From: Promethearchaeota archaeon
GTDB taxonomy: Archaea; Asgardarchaeota; Lokiarchaeia; Sigyniarchaeales; SOKP01
Length of the DNA stretch: 35,581 nt
Reading direction: 5' to 3'
NCBI GenBank assembly: GCA_016926735.1
Contig: JAFGOA010000225.1
Coordinates: 1 to 35,581, forward strand
This document shows positions 1,603-29,982 of this stretch, piece by piece. Below the pieces are notes generated by a model that saw only the letters and a program-made list of their open reading frames with translations, was not told the DNA's origin and made no database searches. Made by a program: the position numbers and the translations under genes. Every line of letters starts with the position of its first letter. Positions within the stretch are counted from its first letter, which is position 1.

Positions 1603-1756
1603 CTTAAATCAAATTATAGAACTAATATTGGTTTAAAACTTTCACTCTAATATTTTGGAATTATACTATTTTGTTATAAAAAAAAATTCATCCAAAGATC
1701 TAAAAAAAAAAGTCAAGAAAATTATAAATTAATATTATTTCAACTCTTCACTGAAA

Positions 1757-1766
1757 TTTTATAAAA
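1757..1766 (+). promoter_or_regulatory. TATA box for the structured RNA locus
   Basis: The sequence TTTTATAAAA is a strong archaeal TATA element, preceded by purine-rich GAAA like a BRE. Initiation about 25-28 nt downstream would fall near 1787-1792, just before the first long stem (left arm from 1796). No protein-coding start follows on this strand before 2955, which suggests it serves a non-coding transcript. Confidence 0.5.
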
Positions 1767-1789
1767 ACTTATTATTTTTTATACAAACC

Positions 1790-2310
1790 AAAAAAATCAT
1801 CTCTCTCCCTTATTTTAAATATCAATCTCACTTAAAATAAAAGTAATTCATATCTTATATTATAAAATAACAAGGGAGATGATAACACAAGTATCGAAAA
1901 TAAAATCATTGGAGGTAAATATCTTAGAATAAAACGTCTCAACGATAAATACTGCCAACAATTCTTCTTACAATTACACTATTCATTAATATTCACGATC
2001 ACATAACTTATTCCTTTATTGATATCAAAATAGGTATGTGTATACTTAGAAGGGTGATAAATGTTTGGAATTTATTCCAATTTATTCTATGCGGGTATTC
2101 TCACAAGTCAAGGATTTTGAGCCTTGTTTGAAAAAGAATAGTCCCTCCTTAGAATACTATAACATTTATTAGACGGATAAGTATTGCGGGATAACTTCCT
2201 TTAAAACTTCGGAGAGAGTACTCGAGGTACGATCGATGATGTATGTTTTGAACTCAGTAATGAGCGAACAGCCTGATAACCCTAGGGCTGGTCTTTTTGA
2301 AAAAAAAAAG
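1790..2310 (+). ncRNA. Unrecognised structured non-coding RNA (candidate)
   Basis: This stretch between a TATA box (1757-1766) and a hairpin/T-run is less AT-rich than other intergenic DNA here and has no credible reading frame. Paired segments read by eye: 1796-1802 plus 1807-1811 with 1872-1883 (12 bp, 4-nt bulge), enclosing a perfect 9-bp stem 1810-1818/1832-1840 as an alternative; 2000-2005/2035-2040 around a hairpin 2013-2034; then a long rod with 2042-2048/2178-2184 (7 bp), 2057-2065/2161-2169 (9 bp), 2083-2089/2150-2156 (7 bp), 2093-2100/2136-2145 (8 bp with a 2-nt bulge) and an apical hairpin 2104-2130 with stem CAAGG/CCTTG. A short hairpin 2253-2264 has a GTAA (GNRA) tetraloop. The end is a hairpin 2269-2290 (CAGCC/GGCTG) followed by GTCTTTTTG. 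I do not see the conserved blocks of RNase P RNA, SRP RNA, 5S rRNA or tRNA. Strand is chosen from the TATA box and the terminal T-run. Confidence 0.6.
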
Positions 2311-2360
2311 ATTAATAATTAGAATAGAAATTGGTGATTTTTGTAGAAATTACCAGATTT

Positions 2361-2546
2361 TTATAAATAATTTGAAGGTTCTCTTGATAACATTACTTTT
2401 TTATTTTTTTTTTTTAATATTTTCTTTATAAGTAGCATTACATTCTCAGAATCATTTGTTCTGTAAGCTTTTTTTAAGTCTTCAAAAATTACTTGCAAAA
2501 ATGTCACTATGGAAATATTAGTTTTTTTTAAAATGTATGTATCCAA
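2361..2546 (-). CDS. Small hypothetical protein (61 aa)
   Basis: A 61-residue reading frame with a TTG start. It is predicted helical, with the positively charged segment KKILKKKNKK near residues 42-51. I do not recognise it. In its favour, a TATA element (TATTTAAATA on the minus strand, 2566-2575) is centred about 25 nt upstream of the TTG, which would give a leaderless transcript starting at the codon. Another small minus-strand gene with the same promoter layout ends 44 nt upstream. Against it are its shortness, the TTG start, no visible domain, and the ease with which A-runs give lysine-rich frames in such AT-rich DNA. Confidence 0.4.
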   Translation of the reverse strand: MDTYILKKTNISIVTFLQVIFEDLKKAYRTNDSENVMLLIKKILKKKNKKVMLSREPSNYL

Positions 2547-2954: not shown

Positions 2955-4538
2955 ATGTCAAATATTCCAGTTATTATTTTAAAGGAAGGAACAGAAGAGG
3001 TTCGTGAAAAAGAAGCTAGAACTCAAAATATTAATGCTATGATTGCAATAACAGATGCTGTTCGTTCTACTATGGGTCCTAAAGGCATGGATAAGATGCT
3101 TGTTGACTCATTAGGAGATGTAACTATCACTAATGATGGAGCTGAAATTCTTGATAAACTTGATATTGAAAATGTTGCCGCAACTATGATGGTTAATTTG
3201 GCAAAATCAATTGATAAGGAAGTAGGAGATGGTACAACGTCTGCAGTCGTATTTTGTGCAGCATTATTAAAAAATGCTCTTGAATTAATTGAACAAGATA
3301 TTCATCCAAAACCTATAATTCAAGGATATAAATTAGCAACGGATAAGGCAATTGTAATTATTAATGAAATAGCTGAAAAAATATCAAAAGATGATGAAAA
3401 AATATTAAAAGCCGCAGCTCTTACTTCTATGAATTCTAAAGATATTGCTTCTGCAAAAGATTATTTTGCCGAATTAGTATTAGAAGCTGTTAAACATATC
3501 GCTGAAAAAAATACGGGTTCAATTTATGACAAAATAAATAATATTAAAATTATTAAAGCATCAGGTAAATCTTTAAAAGATTCAGAATTAATTAATGGGA
3601 TTTATATCCAAAAAGAAAAAGTTAGCTCAAGTATGCCTAATAGTATAAAAGGTGCTAAAATAGCTGTTATTAGGAAGAAATTAGATATTGGAAAATCCAC
3701 TTATGATTCTAAAATAGAGATATCAAGTCCAGAAGATATTCAAAAATTCTTAGACCAAGAAAAAACTATGTTAATGAATTTCTTGCAATACTTTAAAAAT
3801 TTAAATGTTAATATGATTGTTAATAATCAAGATATTTCTGATAAGTTTGGAGCTCTCTTAAGTAAAGAAGGAATTGCTGCAATTAAAAATGTTAGTGAAA
3901 GTGATCTTAAGGCTATATTAAATGCAACAAATGCAAATCTTGTTGATGATCTTAAAGGATTAACCGAGGAAGATCTAGGCAGTGCTGATAGCGTTAAATT
4001 TGAAAAGATTGGAGATGATGACTATACTCTATTTACCGGATGTGAACATCCAAAATCAGTTGCAATTCTGTTAAAGGGGGGTCTTGAAAAAATTTTAAAT
4101 ACTGCTGAAATTGCATTACACGACGTAATAAGTGTATTGGCTAAAATAATTGATACGCAATTAGTTGTTGCTGGTGGTGGCGCGATTTATATGGAATTAG
4201 CCAAAAAATTGAAAGTATTTTCTAATGAAATTAGTGGAAAAGAACAATTAGCAATCCAAGCATTTGCTGTTGCCCTTGAAGAAATCCCAAAGACTCTAAT
4301 TCGAAACGCAGGACTAGATGAGATTAAAAAGATTACAGATCTCAGAGCAGCACATAAAACTCCACAAGATAAATGGATAGGTATCGATACAATTAAAAAT
4401 AAAATAGTTGATAATTTTGAAAATGGAATTGTGGAACCTGCAGATTTAGTAAAACACATCATAATGGCTTCAAGTGAGCTTTCTACTCTTGTATTAAGAG
4501 TAGACAGAATAATAAATGCTAAATCAGCAAAAAAATAA
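2955..4538 (+). CDS. Thermosome subunit (group II chaperonin)
   Basis: A 527-residue member of the archaeal thermosome/CCT family, which forms a double-ring ATP-driven folding chamber with a built-in lid. The equatorial domain shows STMGPKGMDKMLVDS near residues 37-51, the NDGAEIL loop, and the nucleotide-binding/catalytic GDGTTS near residue 91-96. The intermediate and apical domains cover roughly 145-400, including GIYIQKEKV and the long EDIQKFLDQEKTML helix of the lid region. The second equatorial half has VVAGGGA near residues 400-406 and the ALEEIPKTLIRNAGLD segment. Compared with common thermosomes it is slightly short and divergent in the apical domain, and it ends in basic ...AKSAKK instead of a GGM-rich tail, so it is probably one paralogue of several. 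It stands alone; a long T-run follows the stop. Confidence 0.96.
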   Translation: MSNIPVIILKEGTEEVREKEARTQNINAMIAITDAVRSTMGPKGMDKMLVDSLGDVTITNDGAEILDKLDIENVAATMMVNLAKSIDKEVGDGTTSAVVFCAALLKNALELIEQDIHPKPIIQGYKLATDKAIVIINEIAEKISKDDEKILKAAALTSMNSKDIASAKDYFAELVLEAVKHIAEKNTGSIYDKINNIKIIKASGKSLKDSELINGIYIQKEKVSSSMPNSIKGAKIAVIRKKLDIGKSTYDSKIEISSPEDIQKFLDQEKTMLMNFLQYFKNLNVNMIVNNQDISDKFGALLSKEGIAAIKNVSESDLKAILNATNANLVDDLKGLTEEDLGSADSVKFEKIGDDDYTLFTGCEHPKSVAILLKGGLEKILNTAEIALHDVISVLAKIIDTQLVVAGGGAIYMELAKKLKVFSNEISGKEQLAIQAFAVALEEIPKTLIRNAGLDEIKKITDLRAAHKTPQDKWIGIDTIKNKIVDNFENGIVEPADLVKHIIMASSELSTLVLRVDRIINAKSAKK

Positions 4539-29880: not shown

Positions 29881-29982
29881 TGGGAGGAACGGGATTCGAA
29901 CCCGCGACCTCCTGGTCCCAAACCAGGAATCAGTTTGGAAAAATTAAAGTATAATTTTTATACCAAGCTAGACTACCCTCCC
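29881..29982 (-). tRNA. tRNA-Pro (anticodon TGG) with a D-loop intron
   Basis: On the minus strand the acceptor arm GGGAGGG (29982-29976) pairs with TCCTCCC (29888-29882), discriminator A at 29881. The anticodon arm is CCTGG-TTTGGGA-CCAGG with anticodon TGG. The variable loop is AGGTC and the T-arm GCGGG-TTCGAAT-CCCGT. The D-arm GTCTAGCTTGGTA...TGAT is interrupted by 28 nt (29960-29933). Removing them gives a 74-nt tRNA whose D-arm reads as in other proline tRNAs. CCA is not encoded. The gene lies between the polyferredoxin (+) and an ADP-ribosylglycohydrolase homologue (-). Confidence 0.95.
29933..29960 (-). other. Bulge-helix-bulge intron in the tRNA-Pro D-loop (between positions 21 and 22)
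   Basis: Central helix TTGG (29966-29963) with CCAA (29938-29935), 4 bp; 3-nt bulges TAT and ACT on the two 3' sides; inner helix AAAAATT/AATTTTT, 7 bp, closing a 7-nt loop. Cutting each bulge after its second base removes exactly 28 nt and joins GGTA to TGAT. The outer helix is weak, so this is a relaxed form of the motif. Confidence 0.85.

Follow-up and report, generated by a model that had tools for sequence, protein, structure and literature searches.

Positions ~1733-2380 of the window (the whole 35,581-nucleotide stretch of DNA analysed, a contig of a Promethearchaeota archaeon) most probably derive from an Asgard transposon of the tnpB-only (IS1341) type in the IS200/IS605 superfamily: a PATE-like, non-autonomous element that has lost its ORF but kept its two ends and a ~340-nt omegaRNA-like scaffold. 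Its neighbours are a 321-aa ORF on the minus strand (637-1602) and a thermosome gene (2955-4538). An earlier sequence-only reading had placed an RNA of unknown class at 1790-2310. Its structured region is real, although the limits were slightly off, and a large, covarying archaeal RNA with no Rfam match was indeed found. The assignment to an intergenic RNA gene of unknown class was wrong, however. The region forms the right-hand end of a mobile element present in several copies; it is homologous to the 3' part of tnpB and is laid out like a TnpB omegaRNA. An apparent "new ncRNA" can turn out to be a piece of a mobile element. The features are collected in Table 1.

Table 1. Features of the element and of its predicted RNA, in window coordinates
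Feature	Position	Strand	Basis or remark
Whole non-autonomous mobile element	1733..2380	+	Sharp match limits, conserved ends TATTATTTCAAC...GAAGGTT in many copies, empty site in G001; left boundary uncertain by a few bases
Left end, common to TnpB-encoding relatives	1733..1820	+	75-80% identity to left ends of the ~1.75-kb elements
Small left-end hairpin TTTCA/TGAAA	1738-1742/1752-1756	+	
TATA-like sequence, candidate promoter for the RNA	1757..1767	+	Read from sequence
Palindromic hairpin near left end, ORF-less copies	1796..1883	+	z=-4.4; near-perfect in sister copy L012
Decayed 3' end of tnpB ORF (aa 383-500)	1990..2343	+	tblastn E=7e-23, 45% identity, six stop codons
RNA rod domain	2044..2182	+	Covariation in 24 intact elements; model R2 hit, E=2.3e-12
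Rod helices, outer part	2044-2054/2172-2182, 2067-2070/2075-2078, 2081-2089/2149-2157	+	
Rod helices, inner part	2093-2101/2135-2145, 2104-2113/2122-2130	+	
Right-end multi-hairpin domain	2186..2356	+	RNAalifold and pair counts, 53 elements; model R1
Right-end domain helices	2200-2207/2245-2252, GNRA hairpin 2253-2264, 2269-2290, 2292-2311, subterminal hairpin 2331-2356	+	
Conserved right terminus ATTTTTATAAATAATTTGAAGGTT	2357..2380	+	Shared by about 50 copies; variable flank directly after
Predicted guide segment, ~16 nt of flanking DNA	2381..2396	+	Analogy with ISDra2 geometry (PMC8612924)

A repeated element and its TnpB-related ORF

The element is ~650 bp long and was found in five full-length copies in its own genome (G000), which are 75-95% identical. 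Beyond the window copy, three of these share 89-95% identity and one 75%, and there are many partial copies, several of which sit at contig ends, as repeats tend to. The limits of the match in the full-length copies are sharp, at 1731 and 2380. The ends are conserved among copies, with TATTATTTCAAC... on the left and ...TATAAATAATTTGAAGGTT on the right, after which comes unrelated flanking DNA, and hairpins lie close to both ends. Moreover, in a genome of the same genus (G001) the same two genes are adjacent and the element is missing, with ~139 bp in the place of ~757 bp of the window. Both marks of mobility, several copies and an empty site, are therefore present. No target duplication was seen on by-eye inspection of the element copies, and no relatives were found in viral contigs. 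Readings as a group II intron or another self-splicing element were dismissed, since a tnpB element accounts for the ends, the homology and the empty site.

Further copies showed two peculiarities. In a minimal copy of ~48 bp (L029, G000:C93), the left end is joined directly to the right at a shared TTTATAAA, as internal recombination would give. The long palindromic hairpin near the left end (1796-1883) is also found in the ORF-less copies L012 and L016, and was not evident in those intact elements that were folded. A second, unrelated repeat is found elsewhere in the window, at 2607-2808. It shares 69-73% identity with three further genomic loci (L023-L025), and its minus strand resembles a small Cys-containing protein.

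Relatives carry these left and right ends around 1.7-1.85 kb (~1.75 kb) of DNA with one ORF of ~506 aa. Two of the three proteins scanned were above the cut-off for TIGR01766 ("IS200/IS605 family accessory protein TnpB-related") and the third was just below it; together with the shared ends, this makes the window unit a homologue of IS200/IS605-superfamily elements that encode a TnpB-family protein. The match to NF040570 (RNA-guided TnpB) is partial and below cut-off, therefore RNA guidance by this TnpB-related lineage is putative. The window was found to align with the C-terminus of the protein in a frame broken by stop codons (Table 1), and the RNA of the sequence-only reading thus overlies the dead 3' end of a tnpB gene.

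The ORF family occurs in Lokiarchaeota, Borrarchaeota, and Sifarchaeum. Its bacterial relatives are partial and 26-50% identical, save for a 77% identical, Asgard-type TnpB-related gene on a contig binned as Patescibacteria (L225, JANBVM010000002.1), which reflects either mis-binning or transfer. The bacterial relatives align only to ~residue 420-437 of the protein. The C-terminal tail that lies over the RNA (aa ~420-506) seems to be confined to the Asgard family, as though reading had been extended through the RNA. In the alignment (L074 protein numbering), the RuvC residues D266 and E327 are invariant, the RuvC-III Asp appears to be replaced by an invariant histidine (H392), and no zinc ribbon is evident. 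An AlphaFold model was of low confidence (pTM 0.30) and is too weak to judge the RuvC triad, and a PDB sequence search with the TnpB profile gave no relative.

An intact TnpB ORF is absent from the element's own assembly of 238 contigs, where only fragments at contig ends were found; contigs C10, C115, C58, C111, and C69 end within stop-free frames of the TnpB-related ORF. A search of the same assembly for the Y1 transposase (PF01797) gave no match. The TnpA loci of relatives were rejected as the source of the mobilising enzyme since their ends are unlike those of this element. Haloquadratum IS1341-type elements present the same difficulty over the mobilising enzyme (PMC3119063).

Conserved RNA structure at the tnpB 3' end

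The helices were found at the positions that the sequence-only reading had given, and they are stronger than chance. The whole region folds with z=-2.9 and beats 100/100 dinucleotide shuffles, and no shuffle was as good as the rod (2040-2190, z=-3.5), the right end (2190-2380, z=-4.3) or the 5' palindrome (1796-1883, z=-4.4). The nested rod, claimed at 2042-2184, lies at 2044-2182; the GNRA-capped hairpin is CTCA-gtaa-TGAG at 2253-2264; and the TATA box corresponds to TATA-like boxes at 1757-1767 and 1775-1783, which form a candidate promoter. The sequence-only reading had also reported no conserved blocks of RNase P, SRP or 5S RNA. Rfam, which includes these families and sotRNA, agreed, as the sole match in the window at the gathering threshold was a tRNA elsewhere. 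At the relaxed threshold, the structured region gave only plant microRNA matches, at chance level, and so has no family match at either setting. The tRNA itself (29881-29982, minus strand) was missed by ARAGORN. With UUUGGGA in the anticodon loop it is probably a tRNA for Pro (TGG), and it contains 34 nt near the D arm where the model has 4, perhaps an intron in an unusual place.

Covariation in relatives, which had been suggested as a check, was then found in two-sided changes above controls in which the pairing partners were slid. In the right ends of 53 elements, including the subterminal hairpin, 13 pairs show two-sided change and 93.2% of cells are paired, against 5-8 pairs and 31-55% of cells in the controls. 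For the rod (24 intact elements) the corresponding values are 12 pairs and 97.9% of cells, against 3-5 pairs and 32-53%. RNAalifold applied to the 53 right ends recovered three hairpins, the GNRA one and the two that follow it, and two-sided changes were present. In intact elements alone the signal from these three hairpins is weaker (4 two-sided pairs, a number reached by 23 of 500 shuffles). When 27 intact ORFs were folded in 150-nt windows, the consensus energy ranged from -4 to -17 in the first ~1150 nt but from -31 to -68 in the final ~350 nt. No comparable structure signal is therefore seen in the 5' two thirds of the ORF, and the last ~345 nt of intact elements, comprising the rod and the right end, is a conserved and covarying RNA.

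Covariance models built from intact relatives only were able to detect the copy in the window. The right-end model (R1) matched 2229-2380 with 124.8 bits (E=4.5e-25) and the rod model (R2) matched 2038-2188 with 63.3 bits (E=2.3e-12). The right-end model found 10 copies in the element's own genome, 26 in G001, and 18 in Borrarchaeum (G103), with matches in 24 of 117 genomes. In intact elements nearly the whole structure is inside the ORF, whose stop codon in most copies precedes the end of the element by ~17 nt. A conserved structured RNA thus covers the tnpB 3' end and terminates at the right end. Based on this position and its size, both shared with known IS200/IS605 omegaRNAs, we infer that the ~340-nt structure is an omegaRNA.

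Pairing after loss of the ORF

Measured against the intact consensus, 84 of 96 pairs in the window copy are still canonical. Placing its own substitutions at random (the neutral expectation) would leave 70.2 +/- 2.4. Of the 23 pairs with a change on both sides, 18 can still form. This excess could predate the loss of the ORF, so ORF-less copies were compared with each other. L013 and L009-L012 have several stops and their general layout in common. Compared with the L009-L012 consensus, L013 keeps 82 of 88 pairs (expected 76.7 +/- 1.2; a fraction of 0.0008 of simulations was as high), and 4 of 5 double changes are paired (expected 0.56). In L072, an ORF-less copy from another genus in which the ORF may have been lost independently, 83 pairs are kept against 72.8 expected, with 10 of 11 double changes paired against 1.97. 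These pairing simulations ignore phylogeny and are indicative only.

One objection is that such copies are decaying pseudogene fragments whose structure was merely inherited and has no role in the absence of the ORF. The six stop codons agree with this, as do the four youngest copies (L009-L012), whose deviations from their own consensus are those of neutral change; for that reason the window copy itself may be inert. Isolated broken copies gave a varied picture, with L073 and L181 neutral, L182 and L214 mixed, and L196 not neutral. However, the ORF-less copies form a multi-copy family that has moved, compensatory changes are found between them, and they score well for structure whereas most isolated broken copies (L073, L181, L182) score poorly. 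Simple decay is therefore rather unlikely. Since L013 keeps its pairing while the young copies drift neutrally, the comparisons indicate that the structure is maintained in the spreading ORF-less lineage, though not visibly at each insertion.

Alternatively, the maintained structure could be a signal in single-stranded DNA at the transposon right end, read by a Y1 (TnpA-like) transposase. IS200/IS605 ends have subterminal hairpins bound by TnpA (PMC10278001), the hairpin at 2331-2356 fits this description, and mobility requires that the ends be kept. The structured region, with ~340 nt and a long rod, nevertheless reaches far beyond end hairpins. Moreover, the sense strand folds better than its complement (-148 vs -124), and on it G-T pairs outnumber A-C pairs by 310 to 28, a count to be read knowing that the structure itself was predicted with G-U allowed. 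The lack of a Y1 gene in the host assembly points the same way. Because of the size of the structure and the sense-strand bias, a role as RNA is favoured, and a DNA signal is judged improbable.

Protein-coding constraint on the C-terminus of TnpB is very unlikely to have produced the structure signal as a side effect. Almost the whole signal does fall inside the ORF in intact elements, but the rest of the ORF, under the same kind of constraint, serves as an internal control and has no such signal; in addition, the two-sided changes are far above the slid controls and the structure persists in copies that have no frame. An independent host regulatory RNA belonging to a new class, in line with the sequence-only proposal, would account for the strong structure and the missing Rfam match, but can hardly be reconciled with a multi-copy unit with sharp mobile ends, and is already contradicted by its absence from the orthologous place in the same-genus genome and by the homology to tnpB.

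Proposed working and comparison with known systems

Taking the window copy as an ORF-deleted tnpB element, a mechanism can be proposed. The RNA would be transcribed from a left-end promoter; in ORF-less copies the TATA-like boxes of the left end are now close to the RNA and could drive it directly. As the RNA reaches the right terminus, its 3' end would continue into the flanking DNA, which would serve as the guide. A TnpB-related nuclease from an intact copy elsewhere would bind the RNA in trans and cut the empty donor or sister site, and repair would then restore the element. An ORF-less copy could borrow the nuclease but not the guide RNA, because the guide is the copy's own flank, and this would explain why the RNA is kept after the protein is lost. 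Whether ORF-less "guide-RNA-only" Asgard transposons parasitise a TnpB-related nuclease in trans, with selection on the scaffold after protein loss and with parents whose ~340-nt guide RNA lies almost wholly inside the nuclease frame, is a finely balanced question, and we put this forward tentatively.

What is new is the Asgard family, a ~340-nt structure almost wholly in the ORF, and evidence of its conservation in ORF-less elements. In an incomplete literature search, no paper on omegaRNAs of Asgard TnpB elements was found, nor any report of RNA guidance for this TnpB-related lineage. These elements provide a test case for why elements lacking TnpB would keep its RNA, and they point to a long omegaRNA-like structure in a TnpB-related lineage with no evident zinc ribbon. 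The Asgard host adds to this, as TnpB relatives there are relevant to how the eukaryotic Fanzor nucleases arose.

IS200/IS605 omegaRNAs match the tnpB 3' end and the right end, and their last ~16 nt are flanking DNA (PMC8612924). TnpB excises them from the tnpB mRNA, and their reported lengths are 79 to 466 nt (PMC10278001). The Asgard RNA falls within the reported lengths (PMC8612924, PMC10278001) and, similar to the omegaRNA/reRNA of ISDra2 and AmaTnpB, is hairpin-rich, lies over the tnpB 3' end and terminates at the right end. Unlike in those two systems, its ~340 nt are almost entirely inside the ORF, the TnpB-related protein, a putative binder of the RNA, has no evident zinc ribbon, and the subterminal hairpin stops ~24 nt short of the element end rather than within 10 nt of it. 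The RAGATH-18 RNA found with IS607 TnpB is a TnpB guide RNA as well, but it is independent of the coding sequence (PMC11061315), whereas the putative Asgard guide RNA overlaps the ORF. Haloarchaeal sotRNAs (RF02656, RF02657) are sense RNAs in IS200/IS605 tnpB which were later recognised as omegaRNAs (PMC12558985); unlike these, the Asgard RNA matches no Rfam family. The haloarchaeal PATEs, for example HqIRS71 of Haloquadratum, are also ORF-less derivatives of IS605-type elements, and HqIRS71 holds a piece of the disrupted C-terminal coding region (PMC3119063). The Asgard elements differ from PATEs in their host and in having retained an RNA structure with compensatory change after the ORF was lost.
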